From Zingiber officinale (lineage: Eukaryota > Streptophyta > Magnoliopsida > Zingiberales > Zingiberaceae), in contig NC_055990.1 of NCBI RefSeq assembly GCF_018446385.1, forward strand, positions 139,326,996-139,390,995: a stretch of DNA of 64,000 bases, read 5' to 3'. The notes beneath the pieces are model-generated. The model ran no database searches and was not told the origin of the DNA. It worked only from the letters and a program-made list of their open reading frames with translations. The number at the start of each line of letters is the position of its first letter. Position 1 is the first letter of the stretch. Positions 10,136-31,589 of this stretch are shown here, one piece after another. A program made the position numbers and the translations under genes.

Positions 10136-10289
10136 CGAAAAATATAGATTTGACGACCTCGGTTGAATCGCAACAGCGTCTTCACCGCAAGAAAATTTTG
10201 ATTTAGAGTACTTTCGCACTGAAGTTCAAAGTGAACCTTGGCAAAAGTGAGAATTGGTGGGGCAAAGGTTGGGGGCACCTGCTGCCCCT

Positions 10290-10297
10290 TATTTAAA
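10290..10297 (-). promoter_or_regulatory. TATA-like box of the accessory ORF
   Basis: The minus strand reads TTTAAATA within CCTTTAAATAAGG, 155 bp upstream of the ATG at 10135 and directly downstream of the GGCGCC palindromes, the same layout as in the LTRs. Confidence 0.5.
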
Positions 10298-10303
10298 GGG
10301 GAC

Positions 10304-10410
10304 TCCGGGCGCCCGGATCCCTTCCGGGCGCCCGGGGTTGCTAGGGCGGGGCGCCCGGAACCCCTTCCGGGCGCCCCGGAGGGGAATACCAGGGGCGCCC
10401 GCCCCTGGTT
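10304..10410. promoter_or_regulatory. internal GGCGCC palindrome array
   Basis: Five near-palindromes with a gggcgccc or ggcgcc core, two of them spaced 20 bp. The string ggatcccttccgggcgcc is shared exactly with the element's own LTR (about 6900-6917). A T14 tract follows at 10411-10424. Confidence 0.8.
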
Positions 10411-10436
10411 TTTTTTTTTTTTTTTTGAAATTAGGT

Positions 10437-11817
10437 TTGAAGTTAAGTTGTGAGTTTGAATAAAATTTTGAGTTTAAGGTTAAAATTTTTAAATTAATTT
10501 TTAAGTTTAAAATTTTGAAATAAATTTTTAAAATTAAAATTTTAAAATTAATTTTTAAGTTTAAAATTAATATTTGGAAATAATTTTAAATTTTAAAATT
10601 TTGAAAATAATTTTTAAGTTTAAAATTAAAATTTTGAAAATAATTTTTAAGTTTTAAAATTAAAATTTTGAGATTAATTTTTAAGTTTTAAAATTAAAAT
10701 TTTGAGATTAATTTTTAAGTTTAAAATTAAAATTTTGAAATTAATTTTTAAGTTTAAAATTAAAATTTTGAAAATAATTGTTAAGTTTAAAATTAAAATT
10801 TTGAAAATTAATTTTTTTTAAATTTAGAATTAAAATTTTGAAATTAATTTTTAAGTTTTAAAATTAAAATTTTAACATTAATTTTTAAGTTTAAAATTAA
10901 AATTTTGAAAATAATTTTTAAGTTTAAAATTTACAATTTTAAAATTAATTTTTAAGTTTAAAATTAAAATTTTGAAATTAATTTTTAAGTTTAAAATAAA
11001 ATTTTGAAAATAATTTTTAAAATTAAAATTTTGAAAATAATTTTTAAGTTTAAAATTAAAATTTTGAAAATAATTTTTAAGTTTTTAAAATTAAAATTTT
11101 AAAATTAATTTTTAAGTTTAAAATAAAATTTTGAAAATAATTTTTAAGTTTTAAAATAAAATTTTGAAAATAATTTTTAAGTTTTAAAATTAAAATTTTA
11201 AAATTAATTTTTAAGTTTAAAATAAAATTTTGAAAATAATTTTTAAGTTTAAAATTTAAAATTTTAAAATTAATTTTTAAGTTTTAAAATTAAAATTTTG
11301 AGATTAATTTTTAAGTTTAAAATTAAAATTTTGAAATTAATTTTTAAGTTTAAAATTTTGAAATTAATTTTTAAGTTTAAAATAAAATTTTGAAAATATT
11401 TTTTAAGTTTTAAAATTAAAATTTTGAGATTAATTTTTAAGTTTAAAATTAAAATTTTGAAATTAATTTTTAAGTTTAAAATTTTGAAATTAATTTTTAA
11501 GTTTAAAATAAAATTTTGAAAATATTTTTAAGTTTAAAATAAAATTTTGAAAATAATTTTTAAGTTTTAAAATTAAAATTTTGAGATTAATTTTTAAGTT
11601 TAAAATTTTGAAATTAATTTTTAAGTTTAAAATAAAATTTTGAAAATATTTTTTAAGTTTTAAAATTAAAATTTTGAGATTAATTTTTAAGTTTAAAATT
11701 AAAATTTTGAAATTAATTTTTATGTTTAAAATAAAATTTTGAAAATAATTTTTAAGTTTAAAATTAATTTAAGTTTAAAATTAATTTAAGTTTAAAATTT
11801 TAAAATTAATTTTTTAA
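10437..11817. repeat. AT-rich minisatellite, ~33-bp unit
   Basis: About 1.4 kb of imperfect repeats built on aagtttaaaattaaaatttt plus gaaattaattttt, with unit lengths around 32-34 and many small indels. There is almost no G or C. It lies between gag and the internal promoter of the accessory ORF. Confidence 0.9.
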
Positions 11818-12340
11818 GCCTTATTCATCTCACCTGATCTATATTATCAATCAGGGAATCCTATGATTTTGTGAGATGAAATTGGTTTGATTACAGAGTT
11901 TTGGTTTAACTTGTGTTAGATTTAGACTTAGCTTTGGTTTCCGCAAATAGGCATTCTTCGGATAAACTTCTAAGCTTGGTGAGTCACAAGGACATCATTA
12001 GAAGTAACCAACCTTTCGAGGTTTTCCGAATAGTCCTATCCACGGAACTTAGTACTAAATCTTGGTCTAACTGGTTAGGATTCGTTTAAGGGTAGCTTCG
12101 GTCAGTTCCACTTGGCCAAATGCATCAGATCGAAACCATATCTTTCTAGACATGCGATGCCCAAGTTTCCCTAACGTACTATCATCCAAAAATTTCACCA
12201 ATACCATGATTCAAGTTAAACTTGGTCTCTAATTCTAATTGCCCTGCCGGGTTTGTTAGTTTTGGGTTACCCTGTCGGGTAAGTTAGTTTTGGAGGTGCC
12301 AGCTATTCTGGAGCCTCCCCCTGAATCATTGGCCATTAAT
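11818..12340 (-). other. internal spacer shared with the 57.9-63.2 kb copia element
   Basis: It matches 59370-59757 in order (tcatctcacc, gggaatcctat-attttgtgaga, tttggtttaact, gaggttttcc). In the relative this segment leads into the protease; here the match stops at the AT-rich repeat, which marks the point where pol was replaced. Confidence 0.7.
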
Positions 12341-14017
12341 TTAAGTTTTGATTTTAGGCTTGTGTCGATTTTTTTTATAGTTATAGTTAACTTGGTGATA
12401 ATTTTGTTGTTTTTTAAACTGTTTAGATTTTGAATTTGATTTAGGTTTGTATTTTGGATTTTGGTTTGGTTTATTTAATTTTATATAATGTATTTTTTCT
12501 TTAGGTATATAATATTGATTAAGTCCTACTTGCGTGGTTAGACACGCTTTCGGAACCCAAGCTAGATTGGTTGACTTGTATTGGGTTATTAATGATTTGA
12601 AGGTTTTATTTGAATTCGACTTATATCCTAATCCGGTTTTATTATAACATGTTTTTTGATTATTTAGGATTAAGTCTAAATTTTTTGATCTTGTTGTGAA
12701 TTTTTCTAACATCTCCTTTAAATTGTTTATTTCATTTTTTAATGATAAATTCTCCTCCTCAAGTGTTAGATCTTGAGTTGGATTTGAATTTTTTAATTGT
12801 ACCTTGAGGTTTTGATTTTCCTCAAGAAGTAATTTGTTTTCATTTTCTACTTTGGTTAATTTACTATTTAAACAAGAAATGATTCTAAAAAACTTTTTGT
12901 TTAAATTAAAATATACCTCATTCGAGCCTTCGGAAACGAGTACAGACTCGTGGCTTGTTTCGGGTTCAGACCCGTCTTCATCTTCCGACTCATTTTCAGT
13001 TTCGGCTTCGCGGGCCATCAGTGCGAGGTGGCTCTGATGTTTCTGCTCTTCTTCCTCTGATTCGTCTGAGGAGTCGTCCCACGTTGCTTTGAGTGTTTTC
13101 CTTTTTGTTAGCTTTGGTTTGTCGAACTTTAGTTTTGGGCATTCGTTCTTGTAATGTCCCTTTTTGTTGCAGCCGTAGCAAGTCACGTTCTTTTGTTATG
13201 AGGGAGAGCTGATCTTTTGAAGATCCTTTTTGCTGAAGCTCCTCTTTCTCCTGGTGAACATTTTTCTTACCAAGTTCACCAGGTGTTCTTCGTTTTCGGA
13301 GTCTTGGTCAGATTTTTCTTCAAATTCAGGCTTGCTTTTCTTTTCTTTGGAGGACCCTGCAAATATAGCTATACCTTTCTCGGTTCCAGCATTAGTTTGT
13401 TCGTGTAATTCTAATTCACAAAAAAGCTCATCTAATTTTAAGTTAGAAAGATCCTTAGAAATTTTGTAGGCATCTACTATTGATGCCCACAAACTATTAC
13501 GTGGAAAGGCGTTTAATGCGTACCTTATTAAGTCTCTGTTCTCCATCTGGTGGCCTATCGCATGGAGCCCGTTGAGGATGTCCTTGATCCTCGCGTGTAG
13601 TTGATTCGCCGTTTCACCTTCCTGCATTTTTATATTAAAAATTTTATTTAAGAGAAGGTCTCGTTTTGTTACCTTGGCGTCGCTCGTTCCCTCGTGCAGC
13701 TCGATCAACTTGTCCCATAGCTCTTTAGCGTTTTTGTGTGGACCGACTCTGTTCAGTTCTTCTCTTGTCAATCCGCATTGTAGAGTGTTGATCGCCTTAT
13801 TTTCTGTTGATGCTTTTTTCTTCAGATCTGCTGTCCAGTCTTCAGGATCTACTAGATTGCCGGCGTTGTCCACTGGAATTTTGTAGGGTCTCGTAATGCT
13901 CATCCACTGGTCGAAGTCTGTTTTGAGGTAGACCTCCATGCGCTTCTTCCAGTACGGGAAGTCGTCCCCGTTGAAGAGTGGAGGTCGCACCGTGCTAAAT
14001 CCTTCTTGTTGGGACAT
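12341..14017 (-). pseudogene. copia gag with one premature stop
   Basis: Reading from MSQQEGFSTVRPPLFNGDDF (ATG at 14017) the frame runs 559 codons to 12341 with a single in-frame TAA at 13198-13196. N-terminal gag domain: YWKKRMEVYLKTDFDQW, LWDKLIELHEGTSDAKVTKR and MQEGETANQLHARIKDILN. The CCHC knuckle CYGCNKKGHYKNEC (about 13180-13139) follows the stop, then an acidic Ser/Glu-rich stretch and coiled coil. The protein would form the particle and bind RNA; the truncated product lacks the knuckle. No pol follows. The first Met in the track frame (14026) is 3 codons upstream; MSQQ is preferred by comparison with MAQLEGYS at 61591. Confidence 0.88.
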
Positions 14018-14215
14018 TCTGTGCACAGGTAAATAACCGAAAAAAATATCCCAAGACTTGGTCTTGGATTAGTAGTGCGGGAAGAGAAAAATAGTAAAAA
14101 AAATCTAGATTGATATTGCAAAAAAAATGATAAACAAGTTTTGAGTGTAAAACTGAAAACCAAAAAAAAATCACCCCCAGTCTGATTGGTGGTTGCACCA
14201 AATCAGAGTGGTACC

Positions 14216-14228
14216 CACTCTGATACCA
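14216..14228 (-). other. primer binding site, initiator Met-tRNA type
   Basis: The minus strand reads TGGTATCAGAGTG, two bases inside the 5' LTR, matching the plant initiator tRNA-Met complement over 11 bases. Confidence 0.88.
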
Positions 14229-14230
14229 CT

Positions 14231-15336
14231 TGTAGGACCGTTAGATTCGATAGAGGGGGGGTGAATATCGATTCGAAAAACAAGAGTATAAGCGCAGCGG
14301 AAAAGTAAAATAGACACAGTTGTTTTACTTCGTTCGGAGCCTGTGACGACTCCTACTCGAAGGCCCGTGGTCCTTGACCACTTTCGTTGGGCAATCACTA
14401 GCAATTCGAAATAATGATTACAAAAGAATCGTACAGTGAATGCTAATGAAAACTAAAAACAAAATACCGACAAGAAGGGAAAAGAATGGAGCGTAGTGTC
14501 GGAGCTTTGTTGGCGTCGCACTGAACGTTGAGCAGCAAGACCCGAGAAGAATTCTCGACAATTGATTGATTACGAAGCTCTGCAGGGCTTCTTTTATATC
14601 TTTGTTCGAGCGCTGGATCCCTTCGGCGCACGGAATGTGACGTGCACAAACCATGATGCTCCACGTGGCGACGGGCTGGATAAATTCGCCTAGGCGCCGG
14701 ATCCTTCAGGCGCCGGACCTCAGCGCTCGGATCCCTCGGGCGCGGACCACCTTGTTCGAAAACTCCTTTTCCGCAAAACAAAGTTAGTCCGAGGTAGATG
14801 TATATCCTGTAACACAGATTGTCAGAGTTAAAGTTCAACAGATAAATAAAAGAGTATGACTTAGATTACGTCTTCCGAGACGGAATCTAGTCACGATCTC
14901 GACTTAGACATCCGAAATGGATCTAAGCGGATCGACGCCTAATGTCCCTTCCCGAACGCGTCCTCACGATCCTCCCTCCGGTGACTTACACCAGACGTCC
15001 GGTCAGCCCGTCGACCCGTCTGGACTTCTCGCCAAGCGTCCGGTCAGCCCGTCGACCTGCTTGGACTTCTCGCCAGCTATCCGGTCAGCTCGTCGACCTT
15101 GCTGGACTTCTCGCCAAGCGTCCGGTCAGCCCGTCGACCCGCTTGGACTTCTCGCCAGCTATCCGGTCAGCCCGTCGACCTAGCTGGACTTCGTGCCAGA
15201 CATCCGGTCAGCCCGTCGACCTGTCTGGACTTTTCCTGCACACTTGATCAAAGTGTCAGACAACAATAAAACTAACTTAACCTATTTGTCATTCATCAAA
15301 ACCTGGGTTAGACCGTTAGTGCTACCCGCACCAACA
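14231..15336 (-). repeat. right (5') LTR of the 8.8-kb copia element
   Basis: 1106 bp. It is nearly identical to the left LTR over 14231-14530 and 15000-15336. Between about 14540 and 14990 it has many 1-5 base deletions and one insertion of about 20 bases. The TATA box is at 14598-14591 (minus) and the same six hairpin units run from 14991. Confidence 0.93.
14991..15228. repeat. six hairpins at exact 41-bp spacing (right LTR)
   Basis: Left arms start at 14991, 15032, 15073, 15114, 15155 and 15196, in the same order as the left LTR. Unit 2 has a G-T pair (CCAAGCG/TGCTTGG) and unit 3 one mismatch. Confidence 0.92.
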
Positions 15337-15341
15337 AGACC

Positions 15342-16660
15342 GACCAATAGAACAGACAATATTGGTGTCTTGTGTTGAAAAACAAGCTGACATAGAAATA
15401 CAGAGTGACTAGAGACCACCAATCATATTATTTTTGCAACAGGGTGTCCTACCAGCAAATGCATAACAAGCTAGAGTCTTTAAGAAGAAGGCCACCCGGT
15501 ATACTTTGATAGGGGATCAGCTTTACAAAAGGGCCTTTTCCGGTCCCTTGCTCAAATGCATTGGATCAGAAGATATACAATATATTTTACAGGATGTTCA
15601 TCAATGTTCATGTGGTAGTCATATTAGGGGAAGATATTTAGCACATAAGATACTATTGACCGGGTATTTCTGGCCTACTCTACAAGAAGATGCGACTTAA
15701 CTTGTAAGGACATGTATGTCTTGTCAAAAGCATCAAAAAATCTCACATCATCCTACCCAACTGTTGAAGACTTCCATCATTTCTTGCCCTTTTGATCAAT
15801 GGGGTATGGACATAATAGGTCTGTTCCCCTAGCAACGGCTTAAAGGAGATTTCTATTGGTAGTTGTAGACTATTTCTCAAAATGGGTGGAAGCTGAACCA
15901 TTAGCAAGAATTACTGAGAGTGCTGTCATCAAATTCTTATGGTAGCACATTATCTGTAGATTTGGTATTCCCCATAAGTTAATTTCTGGTAATGGAAGAC
16001 AATTCTAGGGACAGAGAATTAAAGAATGATGTGCCAGATATGACATTACATAGGCATTCACCTCTGTGGCATATCCACAGAGTAATGGGCAAGCAGAAGT
16101 GACCAATAGAGAAATCATCAGAGGACTCAAAACTAAATTGGATCATGTTGGTAGTAGTTGGGTAGATGAGTTACCCAGTATGCTATGGGCTTATCGTACC
16201 ACTCCTCGAGAGGCTATCGAGATAACTCCATTCCAGCTAGTATACGGGAGAGAAGCAGTAGTCCCCATTGAGGTTGGGGTGGAATCTGATCGGAGAAGGT
16301 TTTATGATGAAGACAATGACGGTCGACGTCTTATGGAACTCGATCTTATCAAAGAAGCTCGGGACAAGGCAGCAACTCGTCTGGTATCTTATCAACAGTG
16401 AATGAGACAGAACTACAACAAAAGAGTTATCCTCCGATTCTTTCAATTAGGGGATTTACTGTGGAAGCGTGTTAAGCCTTTTAGAGATGTTACTAAATTA
16501 GTGCCCCAATGGGGAGGACCATACTAAGTTATACAGAAACTTGCTTCTAGTTCTTATTATCTCCAAGATTCAGAAGGGAGAAATCTCGAGAGGCCCTGGA
16601 GTGCAAATCACTTAAACCATACAGGGCCTAACAAGTACGCCTATAATTTGTCCATATATT
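15342..16660 (+). pseudogene. Tat integrase, degenerate
   Basis: This is the continuation of the element split at 6500. The N-terminal zinc-binding region is visible (YKRAFSGPLLKCI, H...H around GSHIRGRYLAHKI, then SCQKHQK about 15718-15740). The catalytic core starts at CPFDQWGMDIIG (about 15787-15822) but carries several stops. The third catalytic block lies in the open stretch 16066-16401 (AYPQSNGQAEVTNREI, LWAYRTTPREA, PFQLVYGREAVVP). The C-terminal part to about 16640 reads as LGDLLWKR and RPWSANHL. It would insert the cDNA into chromosomal DNA; this copy cannot. Confidence 0.82.
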
Positions 16661-16749
16661 CCATTTAATTTTTGGATATAATGAAAAGATGCAGGCATCT
16701 ACCCTTTAATCAATACATACATTTGCTAGAATGAATCGAACAATTCTTC
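16661..16749. other. spacer after integrase
   Basis: AT-rich sequence between the end of the integrase reading and the first tandem array. No ORF or motif is recognised. Confidence 0.5.
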
Positions 16750-17660
16750 TTTCGAGCGTGCTTCCTCCACTCAGCTATAGTCGATCGGAGACCTTAAGGA
16801 GTGACAGGTCTGGCTTTCTTGAGGGGAACCGGAGACTTTAAACTATTGATAGTCAAGTGTGCCTACTCTGCTCAAGGCTATTCGAGCGTGCTTCCTCCGC
16901 TCAACAACAGTCGATTGAGGACCTTAAGGAGTGACTGGTCTAGCTTCCTTGAGGGGAACCAGAGACTTTAAACCATTGATAGTCAAGCGTGCCTCCTCCG
17001 CTCAAGGCTATTTGAGTGTGCTTCCTTCGCTCGGCAACAGTCGATCGGGACATTAAGGAGTGACTGGTCTGGCTTCCTTGAGGGAAATCAGAGATTTTAA
17101 ACCATTGATAGTCAAGCGTGCCTCCTCCGCTCAAGCCTATTCGAGCGTGCTTCCTCCGCTCGGCAACAGTCGATCGGGGACCTTAAGAAGTGATCAGTCT
17201 GGCTTCCTTGAGTGGAACTGAAGACTTTAAACCATTGATAATCAAGCGTGCCTCCTCCGCTCAAGACTATTCGAGCGTGCTTCCTCCGCTTGGGAACAGT
17301 CGATCGGGGACCTTAAGGAGTGACTAGTCTGGCTTCCTTGAGGGGAATCGGAGACTTTAAACCATTGATAGTCAAGCGTGCCTCCTCCGCTCAAGGCTAT
17401 TCGAGCATGCTTTTTTCGCTCGGGAACAGTTGATCGAGGACCTTAAGAAGTGACCGGTCTGGCTTCCTTGAGGAGAATTATAGACTTTAAACCATTGATA
17501 GTCAAGCGTGCCTCCTCCGCTCAAGGCTATTTGAGTGTGCTTCCTCTGCTCGGCAACAGTCGATCGGGGACCTTAAGGAGTGACCGGTCTAGCTTCCTTG
17601 AGGGGAACTAAAGACTTTACACCCTCAAAGTTCGAGCACACCTCCTCCGCTCGACACCAA
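16750..17660 (+). repeat. tandem array, 130-bp unit, about 7 copies
   Basis: Units begin with ttcgagcgtgcttcctccgc at 16751, 16881, 17011, 17140, 17270, 17400 and 17530, so the period is 130 bp with one 129-bp step. Each unit holds two related half-motifs (cgagcgtgcttcctccgctc and caagcgtgcctcctccgctc), an agtcgatcggggacc block and cttccttgaggggaa. Copies differ by scattered substitutions. Such arrays between pol and the 3' LTR are known in Retand/Tat elements. Confidence 0.9.
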
Positions 17661-17769
17661 TCAATCAAGAAACCCTAAGCCTAAAACTGGAACATATCAG
17701 ATCTAAACTTCTTCAATACCACAGGCTAACTCGCTCAGGAGGACATTCCCGGCCGAAATGTGGTTATAT

Positions 17770-18510
17770 TCCGGCCTTTTCATATTAATTCTGATTTGCT
17801 CGAGAGCACAATCTCGACTAGAATATATCAATCTGTTGAATTTCAAATATTATCTTATATTCACTCGGGAGTACGTGTCTGATCGAGATATATCAATACT
17901 TTCGCCTTTTCATATTAATTCAGATTTGCTCGGGAGCACAATCTCAACCGGAATATATCAATCTGTTGAATTTCAAATATTATCTTATATTCACTCGGGA
18001 GTACGTGCCCGACCGAGATATATCAATACTTTCACCTTTTCATATTAATTCAGATTCACTCGGGAGCACAGTCATGGCCAGAATATATCAATCTTCCGAA
18101 TTTCAAATATTATCTTATATTCACTCGGGAGTACATACCCGATCAAGTTATATCAATACTTTGGCCTCCTCATATCATTTCAGATTCGCTCAGGGTCATA
18201 GTCCCGACCAGAATATGTCAAACTGCTGGATTTCAAGTATCTTCTTATATTCGCTCGAAAGTACATTCCCGACCAAAATGTGATAATACTTTGGCCTTCT
18301 CATATTAATACACACGCACTCGGGATTATGTATCCGACCGAGATATATCAATACTTTGACCTCCTCATATCATTTCGAGTTCATTCAGGAGTATATGCCC
18401 GATCAAAATATATCAATTTTCTAGCCTTCATATATTAATGCAAATTCATTCAAGAGTATATTCCTAATTGAAAAATGTCAAGGCGATGGCTCTCTTACAT
18501 TCACTCGATA
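17770..18510 (+). repeat. second tandem array, 130-bp dimers of ~65-bp units
   Basis: The block ending 'cctttt catattaatt' recurs at 17775, 17905, 18035, 18165 and 18295, every 130 bp. Inside each unit two related halves are seen (tcgggagcacaatctcgacc and tcgggagtacgtgcccgacc, each followed by a/gatatatcaat). A half-unit step occurs at about 18300-18360, which shows that the 65-bp monomer is the basic block. The sequence is unrelated to the array at 16750-17660 yet has the same 130-bp period. Confidence 0.88.
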
Positions 18511-18783
18511 GTACATTTACAATTAAAACAACCTCAAGTTTTGGAGTAAAACGAGGATAGTTTCGAAGATAAGCTGGTATATCTTAATTCTCGATTAGTC
18601 ATTCATAATTTATAAACATACTACATGCGCCCCACTACTTCACAAATTTTCCTTTTCATGCTTTAATTGACATATATTCATCTTGAAAATTCATTTACAA
18701 GTACACTTGGAGTAGTAGGTAAGCTTCATGAATATGGTCTCAAAAGAATTCAACACAAATAGTTTTACCTGTCCACCAAAGTT
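18511..18783. other. unassigned Tat 3' sequence
   Basis: AT-rich sequence between the second tandem array and the end of the antisense ORF. No motif is recognised. Confidence 0.4.
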
Positions 18784-19573
18784 CTACTTAAAACTACTGA
18801 CAAGGTCCTTAAGTAGCTCCTTGTTAAGAGGTCGACGGTCTATGAATCGGGGAGGAGGTTCTTGAGGTAAGAACCATCCTTCTCGCAATTGTGTCAGAAC
18901 CCCATCAACTGAGTTAAGGTCCCCACCATGCGACTGATGAATTCATTCGTGAACTCAGGAGAAGTCAGGTACTTGCGACGACGGTTTTCCCCATCTTTCC
19001 TCTTCACCTGCCTTATATGTCTGTAATTCTAACTCAAGGCATTCCGCTTTCTCTTGGAAACTGGTCTTTTCAGTTTTGAGACGCTCTGACTCCTTAGTGA
19101 GGAAGTCTATTTCTGAATCTTGAGCTTTCAATCTCTCTTGTAACTATAATAGCTCAAAATTCTGAGAGACCAACTCTTGAGCTGAATTTGGAGATCTAGA
19201 GATGGAAGTTTGAAATTGTTTTGGGATAGAAGATCTGAGAACAGCATTTGAAATAGCCTTATTTTTCTGGGATATTTCAACACTCAACTGAGAGGATATG
19301 CTCTGTATTTGCAACTCCAAAGTCTTTTTCTCTTCTTCTTTAACCCCTAATATTTGACGATGATGCTGCAAATCCTTCTCCAAAAGGGGTCATCAGATTG
19401 GTTTGAGAACTTACCTTCTCTTGGAGTTGGGTGACCTCATTGCCTGGAGTAAGGGAGGCTACCTTTAGGACCCTTAATTGATTCTTCAACTCTTTATTCT
19501 CCCTCTCTAGGTCAGCAGCCAAGTTGCCCATGTAGAAGCTTGAGGTGAAAAAAATGGATGAATATAATAACAT
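18784..19573 (-). pseudogene. Tat antisense ORF, 3' part (coiled coil)
   Basis: On the minus strand, opposite to pol, a broken reading starts near MGNLAADLERENKELKNQL (about 19530-19475), continues through a heptad-rich segment (MEKDLQHHRQILGVKEEEKK and EISQKNKAIS) and ends with LREGWFLPQEPPPRFIDRRP... at a TAG (18784-18786). The end matches the end of the forward relic at 44394-44624 (LREGGYLASKPPIHFLNYKK). It is a coiled-coil protein of unknown role; antisense ORFs in this position are described for Retand elements. The 5' part lies beyond the solo LTR at 24834-25440. Confidence 0.6.
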
Positions 19574-20043
19574 AATTAAAATCCGTGGACATAAACTAGA
19601 AAAATATATCAGGAATACTTGTTGGATCGAGAAGCGCTAGAGGGGGGGGGGGGTGAATAGCGCTCGTGACTATTTCATTCGATTCGTAAAACTATCGGAG
19701 TTAAAACACGCAGCGGAATAAAGAAGCAAACACAGAGACACAGGAGAATTTACTTCGTTCGGAGCCTAGATCGACTCCTACTCGAAGGCTCGCGATCCTT
19801 GATCGCTTTCCATGGGCAACAACTATAAGCACGATAAGAATTACAAGTGAAGTACAATAATCAATAATAAATAATTAAATTATATCGACGACAATAAGAA
19901 TAACTGAAGATTCGGACCTCCGGGTCGTCGGGGGGTCGTCGCAGCACTTCGGGATCGTGTCGTTAGCAGCTAGTCGTAGAAGGATTGCTTGCCGTGAGTT
20001 GTTCTGAGCTGCTGGTCGAAACCCTCATTTATACTGTGTTCAA

Positions 20044-20268
20044 GGCGCCTTCAAACCCTCTTAAGGCGCCTCCAGCCCGCCGAGTCGCACGTGTGGATCA
20101 ACACAGACCTGGTCGAACTCTATCTGGTTCAAGGCGCCTTCAGCCTCTTCAAGGCGCCTTCAACATTCGGTCCAAGGCGCCTTGAGCTTCATTCAAGGCA
20201 CCTCCAGTCTGCTGCGCTGGCTTTTCCTGGCTCGCACCCGAGGCGCCTCCAAGCTCCATGGAGGCGCC
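20044..20268. promoter_or_regulatory. GGCGCC palindrome array in solo LTR
   Basis: GGCGCC cores start at 20044, 20065, 20133, 20153, 20176, 20242 and 20263, with a variant GGCACC at 20197. Steps are mostly 20-23 bp, with 21 the commonest. Flanks extend the palindrome (aaggcgcctt, gaggcgcctc). On the minus strand the array lies just upstream of the TATA box. Confidence 0.88.
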
Positions 20269-20640
20269 TCGGACACTGTTCATCCGAGGTTAACTTGTGC
20301 TCCTTTGGTCATGCAAAAGTGTTAGTCCCAAACACATACCCTGCAAAACAAAGTTAGCACAAAACAACAGAAAATATGATAACAGAATATTATGAAAGTC
20401 TCCGGACTGTCCGGGTCTGACTTCGGATTTCCAACCGGAAACCCTAGGTCGACCCGACGCCTACTGTTCCCTCTAAGGGGAACGCATCCTCACCTACTCC
20501 ACTCAGGAGATTTACCTGTTGCCAGTGCGATCCTCCAGATCGACTGGACTTTTGCTCGGTGCTTGATGCTTCCGGACTTTCTGCTGGACTTCTGCTTCCC
20601 GGCTGGTCCAATCTTTCACCTGGTTCGCGACACCAGGACT

Positions 20641-21537
20641 TGTTGGACCCCGTGGTAGTTTTGATGTGATCAACCAAGTTGGTTAGGTCCTGCGTTGTAT
20701 TTGATCCCTGTGTCTGAGTGTGCAGGAGCTTAGGAACACAGGAAGTCGAGCGGAAGACGCAGCTAGCGAGAAGGACGGCACGGGAAGGGAGCCGACGGGT
20801 TTGGTGCGTCCGAAGGACGAGAGAGCTGCGGAAGAGTACTCCGGTGGTTGTGAAGAGCGTGCGCGACGTTCGAGGGACGTTAAGCCGGGACGGAAGGCTG
20901 CTCGAGGAAGGCCGGAAATTGGGTTCGGGTGAGCCCTATTTCGGTTGGCCACAATCACCCAAAAGATCAGAGCATCGGAAGTCGCAACAAGTTGGAAACG
21001 AAGTCAAAGGAGCTGAGCTGCCAGCTTAGAGGCGCCTCCAACCTGACTGGAGGCGCCTCCAACCTGACTGGAGCCGCCTCCAGCCTGATTGGAGGCGCCT
21101 TCAACCAGTCAAAGTGACCGTTCTGTGCGCGGATAAAGTTTTATCCGCTGCCTCCCATGGAGGCGCCTTGGACCCTCGTTGAAGGCGCCTTGGAGCCTAG
21201 GGATAGAATTTCCAGGACCTATATAAAGGTCCCTAGAGCTAGGAATTCAATATCAACTCAAGCATTCAATCTGTAGTATTTCCTAGCAATAGTTCTGAGC
21301 TTTTGAAAGTGTAAAAGGCTTCTCCGCTTTCAGCAAAGGAGATTTTTTCTACTGCGCTTTTTTTCTACTGCCCTGGATTAATAACCTCCTTGGTTGTAAC
21401 CAGGTTAATTCTCCTGTGTCTTTCTTTTACTGTTTTATTTAACTATTGCACTAATTGAGTTGAAAGTACGAGGAGGGTATATTTATTATTTCAGGAGCAA
21501 TTCACCCCCCCTCTTGCCGGCCTCCGCTGCACCAACA
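20641..21537 (+). repeat. left LTR of gag-only element
   Basis: It carries GGCGCC-type palindromes at 21031, 21052, 21073 (GCCGCC variant), 21094, 21162 and 21184, then tatataaag at 21220-21228. The end is ...ctccgctgcaccaaca. Confidence 0.93.
21031..21228 (+). promoter_or_regulatory. 21-bp phased GGCGCC palindromes and TATA box
   Basis: Four cores at exactly 21-bp steps (21031, 21052, 21073, 21094) with ggaggcgcctcc flanks, two more 22 bp apart (21162, 21184), and a TATA box 36 bp after the last. This is the U3 promoter of the element. Confidence 0.85.
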
Positions 21538-21539
21538 AG

Positions 21540-21552
21540 TGGTATCAGAGCC
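21540..21552 (+). other. primer binding site, initiator Met-tRNA type
   Basis: tggtatcagagcc lies two bases after the left LTR, a 13-base match to the 3' end complement of initiator tRNA-Met. Confidence 0.9.
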
Positions 21553-21602
21553 TGATCGCCTCAGAAGGACTAACTGCCAACTGAAGCACTACGATCAAGA
21601 CG

Positions 21603-23057
21603 ATGGCCGGAGCGAACATCCATCCCCCGAAGTTCGACGGAGACTTCGCCACATGGAAGCGCAAAATGGAGGTATTTTTTAAAACGGATTTTGATATTCT
21701 AATTACGATGAATTATGGTTTTGCAGCGCCGAAAGACAAAGAAGAAAACACATGGAGCAAGAAGGAGTAAGCCGATTTCATTGCCAACGGAAAGGCAGAG
21801 TTCCACTTACTCAGTGTGCTGCCACCACAAGAAGTAAATCGGATCGGAAGCTACGACTCAGCGAAAGATATCTGGGAAAAATTCCTGGAGCTACACGAAG
21901 GTACTTCCGAAGAGAAGCTAGTGAAGCGTGACATCCTCCGGAACCAGTTAACGAACCTCTGGATGAACCAAGGCGAGAAGGTAGCGCAACTCCAAGCGAG
22001 AATCAAGGAGCTGATAACGCAACTAACGAACCTTGGAGAAGAGGTGACCAACCGGGATTCCATCCGATACGCGCTCAATGCCTTCCCGAGAACTCCAGAG
22101 TGGGTCTCCTTAGTAGATGCATACTACATCTCTAAGGACCTCGAGGTAAGTACGTTAGAACAGTTATTTTCGACTTTTGAACTTCACGAATCTCGAGTTT
22201 CAGAGCCAAATGGAGTAGAGAACACCGGTCAGAAAATAGCTCTAAAGGCAAAAGTAAACGGTTCTGACTCCGAAGCCTCAGTTGACGAATCCGAAGCGGC
22301 ACTACTGGTAAGACGCTTCAATAAGTTTTTCAGTACTAATAAATTTAAATCGCAGAGGCATCATCGAAAGAAGAGGACGGTTCGTTGCTACAACTGCAAT
22401 GAAGAAGGGCACATCAAGGAGGATTGCCCAAAATTGAAAAGAAAGGAGAAAGAAAAGGAAAAGTCAAAGTACAAGAAACCAGAACCCTCCAAGCACAAGA
22501 ATCTGAAGGCTACTTGGTCAGATTCGTCAACCTCTGAGTCGGACATCGAAGAATTCTCGGGGTTAGCGCTATTGGCGAACCATCAACCGGAAGAAGACTC
22601 AAGCTCAGAGATGAGCATCGATGAAGGGGGAGGAACATCAGAAGAAGAAAGCAGCAGTGAAGGGGGAGCGTCACCAGATCAGGTAAGTAAGGTACGCAAT
22701 CTAGCCCCTTCTCAGTCTTTTCGATTTATTAAATCACTTTCTAAAGACTTATTCGAAATAGAAAAAGAAAATAAAGAATTAAAAATGAAATTAGCAAAAG
22801 CATGTCCACTTGAAATGTATGATAGTGTAAAATCAGAAAATGATAAACTAAAATTAGAAATTGAAAAACTGAAATATGCTACATGCTTAAATCAATTTCC
22901 AAATTCAAAATTAAGAATTTATGGTAAATTAAATTGGTATATAAGGAAGCATCAAGGTCAACTTAGGAAAATACCAAGAATCTATGTACCCCGTAGAATT
23001 TTGAATAATCCTGTAGGAAGGAACCTCTATTGGGTTCCAAAATCTGTACTTAATTAA
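21603..23057 (+). pseudogene. copia-type gag of the gag-only element, one stop
   Basis: ATG at 21603, 66 bp after the LTR; the frame is open for 484 codons except a TAA at 21768-21770 (codon 56). N-terminal gag: FDGDFATWKRKMEVFFKTDFD, LELHEGTSEEKLVKRDILRN, YALNAFPRTPEWVSLVDAYY. The CCHC knuckle CYNCNEEGHIKEDC lies about 22387-22428, followed by a KATWSDSSTSESD acidic stretch and a C-terminal coiled coil (KENKELKMKLAKACPLEMYD). A downstream ATG at 21816 would give 413 aa lacking the N-terminus. In an element without pol, gag is the only protein kept, which suggests it is useful for packaging in cis or trans. Confidence 0.88.
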
Positions 23058-23734
23058 TCTTTCAAAAATTAAAAGCTTACAGTGAGAAAATTAAACATTG
23101 AAATTCTTTATGGAAGCTTTGTCTAAGGAAGTGGTTGTTGCTCCAATAACCAAGAAGGCCTAGTGCCTCGCCACGACCTGGAAGCTAAAATATTGAAAGA
23201 AAATGTTTAATTAACTTTCTGAAAAAGCATTAAACTAGAATTAAATAATGCTTTAAAAGTTTTTAAATCTTTTTAAAATTCTAAAAAGTCAGATTGTGAA
23301 AATTCAAAAATTTTTAGAATTTTTTTTATTTATTGACGTAGAAATTTTTTTTTCTGAAAATTCAAAAATTTGACTTAGAAATATTTTTGGAAAAATTCAT
23401 TTTAACTTAGAATTTTTTTTTGAAAAATTCATATTGACTTAGAAAATTCTATACATTTCACTTAATTTAAGTTATTTTTTTAAACCCCAATTTTGCTGTG
23501 ATCAAAGGGGGAGAGAAAGGTACAAGTTCAAGGAGAAGTTAAACAAGGGGGAGATAAAATTTTAAATGTTTACTTATTGCAAATTTTTTTTTTTTAAAAA
23601 AAGGTGTTGCAATTTTATTTATTGCAAAATTGTACTTAACCTGTTAGTCTAGTAATTTACCTTTAAAATTACTATTTATGTCTATGTTGTCCCTAACTTG
23701 AACTTGGGTTGATGCACATCAAAAAGGGGGAGAT
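23058..23734 (+). other. 3' internal noncoding region and polypurine tract
   Basis: AT-rich with long T runs and three gggggaga blocks (about 23509, 23547, 23725). The tract aaaaagggggagat (23721-23734) adjoins the right LTR. No ORF. Confidence 0.7.
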
Positions 23735-24605
23735 TGTTGGACCCCGTGGTAGTTTTGATGTGATCAACCAAGTTGGTTAGATCCTGCGTTGTATTTGATC
23801 CCTGTGTCTGAGTGTGCAGGAGCTTAGGAACACAGGAAGTCGAGCGGAAGATGCAGCTAGCGAGAAGGACGGCACGGGAAGGGAGCCGACGGGCTCGGTG
23901 CGTCCGAAGGACGAGAGAGCTGCGGAAGAGTATTCCGGTGGGCGTGAAGAGCGTGCGCGACGTTCGAGGGACGTTAAGCCGGGACGGAAGGCTGCTCGAG
24001 GAAGGCCGGAAATTGGGTTCGGGTGAGCCCTATTTCGGTTGGCCACAATCACCCAAAAGATCGGAGCATCGGAAGTCGCAACAAGCTGGAAACGAAGTCA
24101 AAGGAGCTGAGCTGCCAGCTTGGAGGCGCCTCCAACCTGACTGGAGGCGCCTCCAGCTTGAAGGCGCCTTCAACCAGTCAAAGTGACCGTTCTGCGCGCG
24201 GATAAAGGTTTATCCGCTGACTCCCATGGAGGTGCCTTGGACCCTCGTTGGAGGCGCCTTGGAGCCTCGGGATAGAATTTCCTGGACCTATATAAAGGCC
24301 CCTGGAGCTAGGAATTCAATATCAACTCAAGCATTCAATCTGTAGTGTTTCCTAGCAATAGTTCTGAGCTTTTGAAAGTGTAAAAGGCTTCTTCGCCTTC
24401 AGCAAAGGAGATTTTTTCTACTGCGCATTTTTTCTACTGCCCTGGATTAACAACCTTCTTGGTTGTAACCAGGTTAATTCTCCTGTGTCTTTCTTTTACT
24501 GTTTTATTTAACTATTTCACTAATTGAGTTGAAAGTACGAGGAGGGTATATTTATTATTTCAGGAGCAAATCACCCCCCTCTTGCCGGCCTCCGCTGCAC
24601 CAACA
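23735..24605 (+). repeat. right LTR of gag-only element
   Basis: Near-identical to 20641-21537 but one or more palindrome units shorter (GGCGCC at 24125, 24146, 24163, then about 24254). The TATA box tatataaagg is at 24289-24298. Confidence 0.93.
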
Positions 24606-24855
24606 CTTTCCACCTAGGGTTACCCCCCTTAGGACTTTTGCCTGAAGCACTCGACCCACCAAGACTTTCCGCATAGGGTTACCACCCCCTATGACCTAGG
24701 GTTACAACCCCCTAGGATTTTTACCTTGCCTAACCACAGTTAGCTCTTTTCCTGAAACACTTAACAGACTTGTTAGATCATAACACACCTTAACTTTGAA
24801 TCCTTTGCCATTATCAAAACTCAGGTTTGATCGTCAGATGCTTCCCGCACCAACA

Positions 24856-25440
24856 ATACTTATAGTGGAGGCTTGTTGATTGTAAGCATCGGCCTGATCA
24901 AACACGTTTTTACCTCTCATAGAGTTATGGCCTTGTACCCAAGAGTTAGCCATGGAGTCCTTTAGTTGAAGGATGACAATAGAAGAAGGAATAGGATCAC
25001 CCTCAGCAAAGAAGGAAGACCTTGGGCCAACTTGAAAAGCACTCGAGGAGGGACGGGAGCTGAAGGTCCCGTAGAAGAAGAGGGCAAGGACCCTGGAAGG
25101 GAAGAAGAAGGCAATAAACTGGGACGAGAGCAAGAGGCACCAATGCTAGAAGTAAGAGGTGGTCTTGGTACATTAGTAGGAACGGTGGGAGGTAAAACAG
25201 AAGGCACAGAATCAATTGTTGGCCTGGTAGCAATATCTTGTAAGACAAAGGACTTTTCCCTACATAGAGCGGCTTTTTTGCTATCATGCGCCCATAGAAA
25301 CGAGCCAACAAAATGTCAGTATCCAAAAATCAAGGGGGGGGGGGGAGTCTCTGGCGAAGTCCCTCTGACACTTAAGTCAGTACAATTCCAGCTAGATGAA
25401 CAAAGAACAGTAAGAATATGCACGAGAGTAATTTGTTGAT
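24856..25440 (-). pseudogene. Tat antisense ORF, 5' part
   Basis: This continues the antisense gene of 18784-19573 on the other side of the solo LTR. Readable pieces are RFYGRMIAKKPLYVGKS (about 25300-25250), a Pro/Ser-rich stretch (25207-25040: VLPPTVPTNVPRPP) and VQGHNSMRGKNVFDQADAYN (about 24935-24875). Frames change several times. The sequence between 24875 and 19535 (after removing the insertion) contains a pyrimidine-rich run ending in cacctcaag before MGNLAAD, which could be an intron acceptor; this is inference. No family beyond the Tat antisense ORF is recognised. Confidence 0.45.
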
Positions 25441-25478
25441 GTTCTGAGAATGTACCTTGCCAACGAAAAGGACCTTCA

Positions 25479-25487
25479 CTTTATATA
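25479..25487 (-). promoter_or_regulatory. TATA box for the Tat antisense ORF
   Basis: The minus strand reads TATATAAAG, in a good position to start transcription about 30 bp further on and ahead of the antisense ORF. The Athila-like element inserted 4 bp upstream of it (TSD 25491-25495). Confidence 0.45.
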
Positions 25488-25495
25488 CCACCTAT

Positions 25496-27148
25496 TGTTA
25501 CGTCACCGCAAGTGTACGGTTACGTCATCAGTAATAAAATAATATCGAATCCACAGGGATTGGTAATAAGCACTAAAGATGTCTCAAAAGCAAATTAGCT
25601 AAATAATCATGAAGAGATTATATGTCTTAAGAAACAACTAAAGATTAGAAGTCAAAGTTAAATGCAGAAACTTAGTTTTGTGAAGGTTCTAGGAGATTTG
25701 GTTTCTTAGTGATACTCATTAATGTAAAGCGATCTAAAAATCCTATCCTCAATTGAAATGTGTTTGCAAGAAGTCACTGGTTATTTCTTGCAGAAAATAT
25801 CAGTCAAGGACTCATATCTAAACCTTAAGCAATCAAATAGTTATGATCCCTATGAAGCCCGTTTAATGGGGCAGCCTTGTAACGACGCCTCGCGGTCATA
25901 CAACATAGAAATATCATCACTAATCAATCCACAATAAGATATAGAATTCAGCATATCAATCTGTCCTACTTCTTTGTAGATCCCTGCTTCATCCCCTCAA
26001 AGTAATCCCCTATATGTCCGTTTAATGGGGCAGCCTTATCACGACATCCCGCGGTAATACAATCTAAAGAATTATTCTAAAAGATTCCACTAGAAATACA
26101 AACAACCAATCAAGAATGGTATTAGGGCACAAAACACAACAATCCATACAAGATTGATTGATACAAAACATAACAACATCCTTGAATCAAGAAGATGGCA
26201 AATCCATGAATCTTACATCAATTTACTTCACCAATACTCACTCCATTCTAGAACAAAGGAATCTACTCCATAGAAAATAGGAAAAGAACTGAAGGTGAGA
26301 GGATTGAAGACATTCCAATCAAAATCAAGAAGATAAAAAGGAACGCTTATCTCAATAGGACGAGTGATCTCTGGAACCAATCCACCGCCCTTGGAGTCGA
26401 ATCTTGGATGGAAAACGCCTCCTAATAGGTGGAAATGGCGCCTAAGAACTCATCTCCCTATAGGGAGAGCCCCTCCTTTTCAAAGAGGGGGAAATCCTTT
26501 ATATAAAAGAGGGAATTTAGGCACCACACGACCCAGGACATGACCGTGTGGGATTCACACGGCCAGAGCGCTCCTCCTCTCGGCCAAGGTCACACGGTCG
26601 TGTGACCCTCACATGGCCATGCCATGTTCTGCTTCTGCCTGCTTACACGGCCATACAAATCCACATAGCCTAGCTAATTTCTGTCTCTAGAAGTGTTGCA
26701 TGGCCGTGTGGCACACACGGTCATGCCATTTTTTGGCTCTAGAAAGGCTGCACGGCCGTGTGGCACACATGGCCGTGTACTGGCTGGCTTGAAAAGGTGG
26801 CACGACTGTGTAAGCTTCACACGGCCAAGGTACTCTCCCTTGCTATTGATGCTACACGACCCTGTCATCACCACACGGCCAGGGCCATTCCCCTTTGCAA
26901 GGCCATGTGGCACACATTGCCAAAGTCGTTTTCCTCCGTTTGATCATAGAATTGGCTACGAACATCAATTCTTCTTCAAATTCGACTCTTGAAAGCATAA
27001 AACACACAAGAGCATATCTCCGAACAAAGAGAAGTATTTATGCCAAAAGTATAGTAAGGAGCATGAAAGTGCATAGCTAAAGCATGTATAAAATATAAGA
27101 ATGTACGTCAAAACATGCTAAACAAGTGTATAAAATCTACGCACATCA
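25496..27148 (-). repeat. left (3') LTR of Athila-like element
   Basis: Plus-strand tgttacgtcaccgc...cgcacatca. CACGGCC-type inverted repeats cover about 26525-26920 and, in the minus direction, precede TATATAAAG (26505-26497). Two copies of a block containing gtttaatggggcagcct with a cgcggt end lie at about 25858 and 26020. Confidence 0.93.
26525..26925. promoter_or_regulatory. CACGGCC inverted-repeat array, left LTR
   Basis: About eight imperfect inverted repeats such as GGCCGTGTGGCACACATGGCC (one arm GGCCGTGTG, other arm CACATGGCC), centred roughly every 52-56 bp. It lies immediately upstream of the LTR TATA box on the minus strand. The right LTR has the same array at 34410-34805. Confidence 0.82.
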
Positions 27149-28259
27149 CACCCTCAGACTTAAACTTTTGCTTGTCCTCAAGCAAAATGCCGCAATCAAG
27201 ATTCATGTATTCAATAATGCATCATAATCCTTAGTGTACTTTCCTAACTCTATCAAAAGGTTTCATTAATAAGTATGATCATAGAAATAAATCAAGTATG
27301 GCTTAAGCATAAGTATCATGTGCACGGTGCAAATAAGTAACTCAAAACCCTTCAAGTTTCAATCTTTGTCCTAGTCAAGTCATCATCCAATTGAGTTCCT
27401 AATATTTCCAGTGATAGACACTTACCTGCCACACACTTGGTTCATATTTCTCAATCAACCCAGGGTCTTAAAGGCATGCTTGATATCAGGAGAACCATAG
27501 AAGTCATTTCCCCAGTAACCTAACTCGGTCTCAAAGGGGTGACTTGCTAGTTTTCACTCACGACAAATATTTTTATATCCCTTTTTTTTTATCAACACTT
27601 TTTTTCCCATTTTTTTCATCATCATACACCTTTTTTACACTAAGTGATTGCATTGTGCAACACTTAAACACATAAGTTATAGGCACAAAAGTTGGGATAT
27701 TTTGATTTTTCCAAATGAACTTTCAAGATTCGAGCCTCATCCAGTAACCAAAATGAAGTTTGAGAAATTACCATGGAAACCAAGTACTAAACAAATAGGA
27801 TAAATCATGACTATTTCAATGATATCAACTATTCAAGCTCAAGTAAAGTGAAGTGAAAGTAAGATCCTTAAGGTTAAGTCAAAACTAAAACTTATTTCTA
27901 TATGATACTTAGCTCACATCATGCTACTCAAGATAGAGAAAAGAGATACACTAAACATTCTAGCATCATTTACAATATCATGAATCAAGATAAAGAACGT
28001 GCTAACAATTTTGCTTTTGGCCAAGTAAGCATAAAAGTGAGGATTGATGTTTCTTCAATAGGGATGCCACAAAACTTTTCAAAAGACAGTCAAATGACTA
28101 TCAAAAACAATCCAAACAAAGCAAAACAAATGGAAAACAAAAACAAAAACAAAAACAAAAACAAAAACAAAAACAAAAACAAAGAATGCAGAAAATTGCA
28201 AAAAACTTTTTAGACTGTAGATCACCCCCAGACTTAAACTTTTCATCGTCCCGATGAAA
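27149..28259 (-). other. 3' noncoding region with polypurine tract
   Basis: The minus strand ends in AAGTCTGAGGGTG against the LTR, an Athila-style purine tract. Poly-T and A-rich tracts lie at 27580-27625, and an (aaaaac)n microsatellite at about 28137-28183. Related sequence is found at 2997-3716. No convincing ORF. Confidence 0.65.
28137..28183. repeat. (AAAAAC)n microsatellite
   Basis: About eight tandem hexamers just downstream of the ORF end at 28260. Confidence 0.9.
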
Positions 28260-29749
28260 TCAAAATGGTGGTGGAGGTGGACAAGGGAAAGGAGTTCTAT
28301 GTGGATGTCCAATAGGAAAGTTAGGAAAACCTGGAGTTTCACTCAGGATCCTATGATACTCATAGAGGGCATTTACTTGTTGACTAGTAATACTAATGCC
28401 CTGCATAAATTCTCTCATTCTAGCTTGATCAATATCATAGTCCTGAACAAATTCGGCCACTTGACCTTGAAAATTTCTCGTGAATTGAAAATGATTCTGT
28501 ACTTCTCTAAACTGGTCATTTGATAAAGAAAAGTGACCCTCCAACATTACTCGTTAGGCATCCTACTTCTCATGAAGCAAGTATAGAGATGTACGAAAAT
28601 CAGAAAAATCAAATCTGGAACTACTCGTACCATAGGCAAAAGAGTGTCTAGCAGGTTCCGGATGCTTGGAAGGTTGCGGATGTCCAGATGACGAGGGATC
28701 AAGGCGGGGCTCTGTGTCTCCGGATATAGAAAGAACATTCTCAAGATCTCTATCAATGATTACCCAATTAGCAGGGTTGCGGATAGAGGTGTGCTCGGGA
28801 TAAGGAAGAGGTAATGGAAAATCATTCTTCCTAGGAAAAGCAAAACCATTCTCATCCCGACAAATCATTTTCATAGCAAGACATGCATCAATATCAATCA
28901 TATCATTGCCATGAATGACCTCCAACCCATCTAGATCAAGATTCAAACTTATAGCTATTTAGTAATCAAACCACCAAAAACAATCGATCTTGAGGATGTC
29001 TTTCCAGCTCTCACCAAGGTTTGCAAAAATAGAAACTGGAATCAAAGTCAACCTTATGTAACATAGGCCACAGAGTATAAAGTTCTACTTTCTTTATAAC
29101 CCCATCACTTTCCCCTCTACCAAAAATAGTTTTACTCATGACACGATTTAAATATTTAAAAATGAGGTTTTGCATATGAGAAGCCTTATCTCTAGAGGGC
29201 TCATAGGGTTGATCTAATCTAGTAACCAAATTTCAAAAATGATTCCAATTAAATCTTGATTCAAACCTGCGAGAGTTATTGGTAGACAATCTAAAATTAT
29301 TATTGAAATCACTAAATATCCACTGAAACTCTTGATTTATTAGTCTAAAAGTAATCTTGCCAAAAAATCATCTTCATTAGCAAAGTGAACATCTAGTGAA
29401 CTCAAAAATTCCAATATAATTCAAGGATATGTAGGTAGATGTGTGTACATGATATCATTCCAATCAAGAGACCCAATTATCCAATCTATATCATCCTTAA
29501 TTCTTAACATGTCTAAAATAGCTGGGTCCATATAACATGTACACACAATCTTTCTATTGACAAGAATTTTAAATCTAGACTTATGATCTTCATTTCTAAA
29601 ATAATATTGAATTCATTGTCATTACCTTCGTCACGTGCTATCCTCTTTCCCTTGCCCTTTGTCGGTTGCTTTCCTTTTTCTTTGGTTGGCTCTCTTCCTC
29701 CGCTTGATCCACCACTTCCTTTGCGAAGTTTCTTCAAAATATTGGACAT
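28260..29749 (-). pseudogene. degraded ORF of 'plant transposon protein' type in Athila-like element
   Basis: ATG at 29749 gives MSNILKKLRKGSGGSSGG and a Lys-rich stretch (KEKGKQPTKGKGKRIARDEG), then broken frames. The readable block MSKTIFGRGESDGVIKKVEL (about 29130-29070), followed by YTLWPML, is typical of the family annotated as putative plant transposon protein. The last 230 codons (28946-28260) are open apart from one or two stops, Pro-rich, with a Gln-rich helical part (DQFREVQNHFQF) and a PCPPPPPF end. In Athila this position is often called env-like. Several stops make this copy inactive. It sits downstream of a palindrome array, like the intact ORF at 8869-10135. Confidence 0.62.
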
Positions 29750-29999
29750 GTTGTCAAGCTTGAGTAAGGAAAGGTGCTGTTTTGTTGGAGAAGTTCTTGT
29801 GAGAATAGATCTTGAAAGACAAGATCTTTAGGACTAGGAGTTGTAGATGTTGAAGGTAGGGGAGGAGAGAAGCGGTGTTAAGATCTAGATCTTGAGAAGT
29901 TTGTGGAGAGAAATGAGTTTAAGATCTAGATCTGAGAGGATTAGAGGAGAAGTTGAAGAAGAGAAGAGTTTGGGAGAGAGGAGTAACTTGAGGGAAATG
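29750..29999 (-). other. leader of the degraded ORF
   Basis: On the minus strand this is pyrimidine-rich (CTCTCC and TTCTTC runs) with two agatctagatct palindromes (about 29887 and 29925). It reads as a 5' UTR between the palindrome array and the ATG. No clear TATA box is seen. Confidence 0.45.
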
Positions 30000-30480
30000 G
30001 GTGTGTGTGGCCAACACGGCCTAGGTATGGCCGTGTCTTCAAGACACGGCTAAGGCAGATCACTCCTCACGGGTCGTGTAGATCTACACGACTCTAACCT
30101 TCTCCTTCTCGGGTTAGTCCACACAGTCGTGCCAATTTGCATGGCCACAACCATCTTCTTCACGGTCTAGTTCACACGGCCGTGTGTGCGACACGACCTC
30201 ATACTTCTCCTTCTTGAGTGACTTTGCATGGTCGTGCTAGATAGCACGGGCAATGCAGATTTCTCTTCTGGATTTTTACACAACCGTGTGTGGGACACAG
30301 CTGAGCACGTCTCTTCTTTTGGAATCATCACACGGCCGTGTGTGGCACACGACCAAGCAATTTTTCCTCTCGGGAGCCCTTACATGGTCGTGTCTTATTA
30401 ACACGACCCATACATCCTTATTCTCTGCAAGTCATACACGACCGTGTATAACACACGACCGAGCTCTGTTTTGCCCTGTA
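30000..30480. promoter_or_regulatory. internal CACGGCCGTGTG inverted-repeat array
   Basis: Perfect palindromes cacacggccgtgtg occur at about 30174 and 30328. Further units at about 30228, 30282, 30384 and 30436 pair arms like GGTCGTGT/ACACGACC around 7-base loops, with steps of roughly 50-54 bp. The motif class is the same as in this element's LTRs. Confidence 0.82.
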
Positions 30481-30651
30481 TTAGATGATCTTTCTCCTTC
30501 CCAACTTCTCCAACACTTCCATGACCATGAAGTTGTCATGCCCAGCTCATGGAAGCAAAATTACAACCTGAAAACAAATGTAACACAAATTTAAAAGTAC
30601 TACTAATGAAATGAAAAACTAAAACTGAAAAATACTAAAGGAACCCTTGGG

Positions 30652-31515: not shown

Positions 31516-31589
31516 TAATCTCTGAGGAAAATGGACTACTTGATTCTGTGGGTTTAGTGGAAGAGTCTCTTCAACCTTATTGGTACTCC

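Follow-up and report, generated by a model that had tools for sequence, protein, structure and literature searches.

Matched palindromic arrays at the LTRs and the internal gene of Copia and Athila-like retrotransposons in ginger

A 64-kb stretch of the ginger (Zingiber officinale) genome (C5:139326996-139390995, in a genome of 3.09 Gb), hereafter the window, holds two long terminal repeat (LTR) retrotransposons of different superfamilies, a Sirevirus-type Copia element at 6498-15337 and an Athila-like Gypsy element at 25494-35036. An initial annotation of this stretch had noted that in each element the palindromes of the LTRs recur in an array inside the element, as if one regulator drove both transcripts. 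The matched palindromes are real, and their class changes together at the two sites from family to family: LTR and internal array agreed in 19 of the 19 elements in which both could be read, across four classes. Here we describe the two elements, their arrays and the gene downstream of the internal array, and weigh what could hold the two arrays alike.

Organization of the two elements

The Copia element carries palindromes of the GGCGCC class and is laid out as follows.

6498-7615, minus strand: 3' LTR, 90.4% identical to the 5' LTR by self-BLAST, with GGCGCC at 6893 and 6912
6875-6884, minus strand: LTR TATA box CATATAAAAG, its TATAAA starting 16 bp past the start of the last GGCGCC
7617-7624, minus strand: polypurine tract AGGGGGAG, starting 10 bp before the 3' LTR when the TG at 7614 is taken as the LTR start (by eye)
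8869-10036, minus strand: proposed exon 2 of the internal gene, with the Transposase_32 (PF20167) domain and a C-terminal helix
10037-10124, minus strand: proposed intron (GT...ACAG), placed by motif positions
10125-10135, minus strand: proposed exon 1 of the internal gene (ATGGCTCCTCG), with a GTAA donor next to it and putative splicing
10288-10297, minus strand: internal TATA-like box TTTAAATAAG, 16 bp from where the last GGCGCC starts
10304-10410, minus strand: internal array of five GGCGCC palindromes, 19-24 bp apart
12344-14068, minus strand: gag (Retrotran_gag_2, PF14223) and an open reading frame (ORF) resembling a zinc knuckle (PF00098, below cut-off)
14228-15337, minus strand: 5' LTR, its array decayed and its TATA at 14591-14600 lacking the 16-bp spacing

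The Transposase_32 ORF of this copy has 386 codons and falls just below the PF20167 cut-off (E 3e-11, 43.9 bits, cut-off 45). The polypurine tract AGGGGGAG occurs four times within the element, at 7617, 7750, 8314 and 12315, multiple polypurine tracts in the linker being a Sirevirus trait. Between gag and the internal promoter lies an AT-rich block of about 42 tandem copies of a 33-bp unit (10455-11799), and the element itself is apparently inserted in another one, with a 5-bp duplication, AGACC, seen by eye at about 6490 and 15345.

The Athila-like element has the following features.

25494-27149, minus strand: 3' LTR, 92.5% identical to the 5' LTR by self-BLAST, with dyads at 26542-26921 and a TATA at 26497-26507
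28263-29749, minus strand: internal gene of the ATHILA ORF-1 type, with the start codon (ATG) at 29749 and disrupted in this copy
29999-30460, minus strand: internal dyad array, in which a relaxed scan finds ten dyads, most of them 51.5-53 bp apart
32430-32729, minus strand: gag piece (Retrotrans_gag, PF03732; E 1.2e-17), a Gypsy-type gag
33381-35036, minus strand: 5' LTR, with dyads at 34429-34808

One piece of the broken internal ORF matches ATHILA ORF-1 below the cut-off (E 0.0072), and relatives match PF03078 in seven of seven cases, the best, an open relative, with an E of 3.3e-24. The ORF listing and the domain matches bear out, for both elements, the annotated placement of the internal array between gag and a Transposase_32 or ATHILA-type ORF. 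No pol-like frame was seen among the frames of at least 80 codons in either copy. The window holds a further element of interest for comparison.

20640-24605, plus strand: Sirevirus-type element that has gag and carries GGCGCC in its two LTRs (5 and 4 copies) but not between them

No second long frame was seen in this last element. Elsewhere in the window, at 51244-52835, about 11 copies of a 144-bp unit form a tandem array.

The arrays compared with chance

As annotated, the copia LTR and internal array share exact sequence: the 18-mer ggatcccttccgggcgcc has just two exact copies in the window, at 6900 in the 3' LTR and at 10315 in the internal array. GGCGCC occurs five times within the 315 bp of 10140-10454, and no palindromic hexamer was equally frequent in any of 300 dinucleotide shuffles. 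The palindrome is present in the LTR as well, as annotated, but there it occurs just twice, and the leading palindromic hexamer of the LTR is GTCGAC, with six copies that belong to a distinct 41-bp repeat. In three other elements of the GGCGCC family the LTR stretches contain 5, 4 and 2 copies of GGCGCC. Tandem copies of the 41-bp unit lie apart from the GGCGCC array in both copia LTRs (7276-7510 and 14998-15232) and in a related LTR at 62820-63097.

Inverted repeats are likewise found in the internal array and both LTRs of the Athila-like element, but the simple motif CACGGCCGTG by which they had been described did not hold, being perfect at only four sites in the window. No palindromic hexamer stands out in these LTRs (the top one is equalled in 182 and 295 of 300 shuffles), and the conserved object is a spaced dyad, GGYCGTGT-N5-7-ACACGRCC, consisting of two 8-base arms; with spacers of 0-11 allowed, only 5-7 were found. 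The internal array has seven such dyads where 200 shuffles average 0.03, the 3' LTR seven (0.055) and the 5' LTR eight (0.06). In the window as a whole there are 30, made up of these 22, four at 57.4-57.6 kb and four at 0.1-1.4 kb. The latter two places belong to further dyad stretches of the Athila type, at 57360-57718 (five dyads, 53 bp apart) and at 138-1368.

Palindrome class across families

The four classes are GGCGCC, GTCGAC and ATCGAT in Copia elements of the Sirevirus type and GGCCGTGT-N5-7-ACACGGCC in the Athila-like family. The 19 matching elements comprise 14 from the PF20167 search (3 GTCGAC and 11 ATCGAT), four GGCGCC elements and the Athila-like copy of the window; elements of one family are kin and not independent, so that at the level of families the match is four of four. 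Sixteen PF20167 loci were examined, the eight best (L001-L008) and eight of the other 142 listed, picked for differing hit lengths (L050-L057), and they fall into the GTCGAC and ATCGAT classes. Both arrays are present in 14 of them and the class is equal in all 14, the two outside the count being L003, whose internal array is interrupted, and L053, whose fetched stretch holds no LTR array. The GGCGCC elements with both arrays are the window copy and L010, L011 and L012 (LTR stretches L039, L040 and L041), LTRs having been taken from three of the 29 other copies. For the Athila-like family the LTR-internal match was read in one element, the window copy, in both its LTRs, while the internal dyad grid is present in 24 of 30 loci (23 of the 29 further copies). 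The six loci without internal dyads (L065, L080, L082, L083, L085 and L087) have other repeats upstream, as judged by eye, and were regarded as interrupted rather than mismatched. Among the 30 loci of each family are the window's own copies, L009 and L058. No element with LTR and internal arrays of different class was seen among the 19.

The internal proteins of the three motif classes are homologous, with identities of 34-37%. In L001, L006 and L008 the end of copia pol was seen by eye just upstream of the internal gene, which therefore has its place downstream of pol and ahead of the 3' LTR.

Promoter placement and array geometry

In the GGCGCC family, 27 of 30 loci have the last palindrome starting 16 bp ahead of the internal TATA, with one base of slack, and three of five LTRs have it at that distance from the LTR TATA; the ten bases between palindrome and TATA differ. 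The internal exceptions are L034, which has no box, one locus with the palindrome at 35 bp and one with no palindrome in reach; those in LTRs are one at 25 bp and the decayed 5' LTR of the window. The ATG of exon 1 and the donor are conserved in 28 of the 30 loci. In three GTCGAC elements, the distance from palindrome to TATA is 20-21 bp at the internal promoter and, as counted by hand from the sequence, 31 bp in the LTR. No TATA was seen in the Athila-like internal promoter, just a pyrimidine-rich leader.

Spacing within arrays is also shared to a degree. Dyads of the internal Athila array mostly follow at steps of 51.5-53 bp, with two shorter steps of 30 and 42.5, and those of the LTR run are 51-54 bp apart until two odd steps of 24.5 and 17.5. 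Between ATCGAT dyads the distances are 31 and 53-55 bp in internal arrays and 30-31 and 50-55 bp in LTRs, besides two longer gaps; the centres of these dyads differ. GTCGAC arrays have gaps of 13 and 20 bp in common between LTR and internal array, among other gaps. A strict helical phase of 10.5 bp was considered and is unsupported, the phase score of the ATCGAT arrays being broad, with its peak at 11.5-11.75. A second Athila family appears within L082 (2215-2501), with six dyads every 53 bp and the end of the arm mostly changed from T to C (GGCCGTGC).

The internal protein

In the Copia families the internal gene, Transposase_32, is open and looks conserved; within the GGCGCC family it is for the most part open. 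A first AlphaFold model, built from two sequences, was discarded as too poor (pLDDT 37). In a structure search with the AlphaFold model retained for the Copia internal protein, the best match, a weak one, was VANC21 bound to DNA, VANC21 being an anti-silencing protein encoded by Arabidopsis DNA transposons; a viral structure library gave no match with E below 1. At the level of sequence, profiles A5, A3, A4 and P0013 gave no PDB match to VANC21 at E<=10, in a library whose inclusion of the VANC21 chain was left unchecked. The gene is encoded in LTR retrotransposons and not in a VANDAL (Mutator-like) DNA transposon. The usual threshold for a transmembrane segment on the Kyte-Doolittle scale is 1.6. 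An envelope role was considered and is not favoured, with no clear transmembrane segment found: the maximal 19-residue values in seven proteins range from 1.23 to 1.73, and one exceeds 1.6.

Some database entries should be read with care. P0004, annotated as coming from Salmonella enterica, shares 58% identity with the retrotransposon protein of ginger over 32% of it and probably reflects sample contamination. P0006, P0009, P0010, P0011 and P0016 are ginger gene models in which the retrotransposon protein is fused to peroxidase, dUTPase or other domains, and are probably annotation chimeras.

A model for the matched arrays and its alternatives

Taken together, we consider it fairly probable that each family has two promoters, one family-specific palindrome and a self-encoded, DNA-binding regulator acting on both. 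The LTR promoter would produce the genomic RNA and the internal promoter a separate gene near the 3' LTR, in the position of an env-like gene, with both promoters under the one palindromic response element. The internal gene, Transposase_32 in Sirevirus-type and ATHILA ORF-1 in Athila-like elements, would most likely encode a DNA-binding protein with a VANC21-like fold, whose C-terminal helix could pair two subunits. By binding its own family's dyads in the LTR and internal arrays alike, such a protein would sustain the activity of the two promoters, probably through an anti-silencing effect, and would thereby form a positive loop. It is the VANC21-like predicted fold of the Copia protein that makes a self-encoded product the best candidate for the one regulator; that such a regulator drives both transcripts we infer, with putative binding and with a fold modelled for the Copia protein only. 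Dimer formation, activation or anti-silencing, splicing and the same action by the Athila protein are likewise conjectural. More broadly, env-like and ATHILA ORF-1 genes might be VANC-fold, sequence-specific anti-silencing regulators and not envelopes, the protein and the palindrome of its two arrays changing together, in a system that would span Copia and Gypsy and have a common ancestry with the VANC system of DNA transposons; we put this forward tentatively, as a possibility that is rather doubtful at present. One observation weighs against the matching of classes between LTR and internal array, namely that the 41-bp repeat of the window copia LTR, with its six GTCGAC, has no internal counterpart.

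The likeness of the two arrays could have arisen by copying. An internal array that was simply a nested LTR fragment would account for the motif and the 18-mer common to both places, yet in ten comparisons of internal region and LTR within the same element (up to five longest matches each, and all matches for the two window elements only), the longest matches were confined to the arrays or their edges. Because of this, the arrays are not nested LTR fragments, an origin to which we give hardly any credence. Somewhat less remote, though improbable, is a concerted evolution without regulation, in which arrays swap units, for instance when reverse transcriptase switches template from one palindrome to another, and are alike by copying alone. 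The matches do extend over spacers in two of the three GTCGAC elements (63-66 bp at 90-91%), the longest in the window copia being 32 bp (91%), and the sharing of spacers makes unit exchange between arrays likely in those two GTCGAC elements. ATCGAT and Athila arrays, however, have common arms and hardly common spacers: in the Athila arrays spacer identity is 0.24 and flank identity 0.37, against 0.26 expected, while arm identity is 0.72-0.75, a value inflated by the fact that the dyads were found by their arms, and the central tetramers of the ATCGAT dyads differ. Since the spacers differ in these arrays, it appears to be selection that maintains the arms. The position of the array beside a promoter is retained as well, and exchange may be the means by which selection keeps the arms.

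The arrays could also be matched for a different user. A host transcription factor, different for each family, might bind both arrays while the internal gene served otherwise, in movement, assembly or an envelope-like role. The palindromes upstream of TATA do resemble ordinary activator sites, a database comparison by Bousios 2010 recovered mainly plant stress-factor sites (PMC2829016, drawn on here, like the other papers cited, in excerpt), and the LTR array is kept in elements that lack the internal gene, such as that at 20640-24605 in the window and, in the same excerpts, OPIE-2, PREM-2, Osr8 and Tnd-1. Against this, homologous internal proteins pair with three unrelated motif classes in a single host, which would call for three or more host factors, and the closest match of the predicted fold is to a DNA-binding protein that a transposon encodes; we regard a host factor as unlikely. 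In retroelements the 3' U3 and the internal part lie within the genomic RNA. Both arrays would thus fall within it, as hairpins for dimerisation or packaging would require, but the fixed spacing to TATA and the site upstream of two promoters point to DNA, and a role as RNA seems very unlikely. The self-encoded regulator remains the explanation that we prefer.

Comparison with known systems

The best reading of the proposed regulator is one that resembles VANC in its choice of target. Among retroviruses, foamy viruses have an LTR promoter and an internal promoter under one self-encoded activator, Tas. The ginger elements would be like them in having two promoters per retroelement under one self-encoded activator, by analogy only, foamy virus being an animal retrovirus with an unrelated protein.

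The nearest published case is that of the Sirevirus RM boxes, which are palindromic, element-specific and placed in LTRs before TATA and before the env-like gene; the four RM Sireviruses without an env-like gene have no internal copies (Bousios 2010, PMC2829016). The ginger Copia elements share the palindromic RM in both places, and the Copia half of our finding is in this sense already known; the published table, as excerpted, implies one motif per element at both sites. RM boxes were called Sirevirus-specific, 12 of 13 having a CGG-CCG core, and the internal promoter was not conclusively identified (PMC2829016). In ginger, the window class retains the core (CGG-GCGC-CCG), whereas the GTCGAC and ATCGAT classes do not have it in their arms, as is likewise true of the Tnd-1 RM (PMC2829016), and the internal TATA stands at fixed spacing. 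To the RM boxes so described, ginger adds the Athila-like Gypsy case and the VANC-like predicted fold. Among the matches listed for open-licence PMC articles (a set outside which most subscription papers and all preprints fall), and as far as their excerpts go, we found no matched Athila arrays, no VANC-like fold of an LTR retrotransposon and no TATA-bearing internal promoter at a spacing equal to that of the LTR.

Accessory genes near the 3' LTR with nuclear or predicted DNA-binding products are described in gene23 of Grande and TRP28 of Retand, the Grande gene having its own promoter and about half of the Retand elements having tandem repeats in the corresponding part (PMC7264820, PMC11963269). 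Unlike the ginger internal genes, these ORFs are antisense, and an LTR-matched array is not described for them in the portions of these papers used. The 3' ORF of sunflower Athila 14 is closer in being sense and partially similar to Transposase_32, the nuclear localisation signal being sunflower's, and it is described, in the excerpted text, without promoter arrays or a VANC-like fold (PMC11728184). A 2026 paper, in the part consulted, leaves two questions to future work, the presence of such ORFs in Tork and Athila and a modulating effect of the proteins on the elements' epigenetic landscape (PMC12844716).

The matched dual-promoter layout and the VANC21-like predicted fold turn the role of env-like and ATHILA ORF-1 genes into a testable question of binding. 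As in the VANDAL DNA transposons, whose VANC proteins bind DNA, the arrangement would combine an element-encoded protein, arrays of its own short motif in noncoding DNA and a joint change of the two, although the motif of VANC21, YAGTATTAY, is described in arrays of one orientation (PMC5735166, PMC10398659, as excerpted). If the proposal is true, it would explain why each family retains its own palindrome, and control of silencing by self-encoded, sequence-specific means would reach beyond DNA transposons into two widespread groups of plant retrotransposons.
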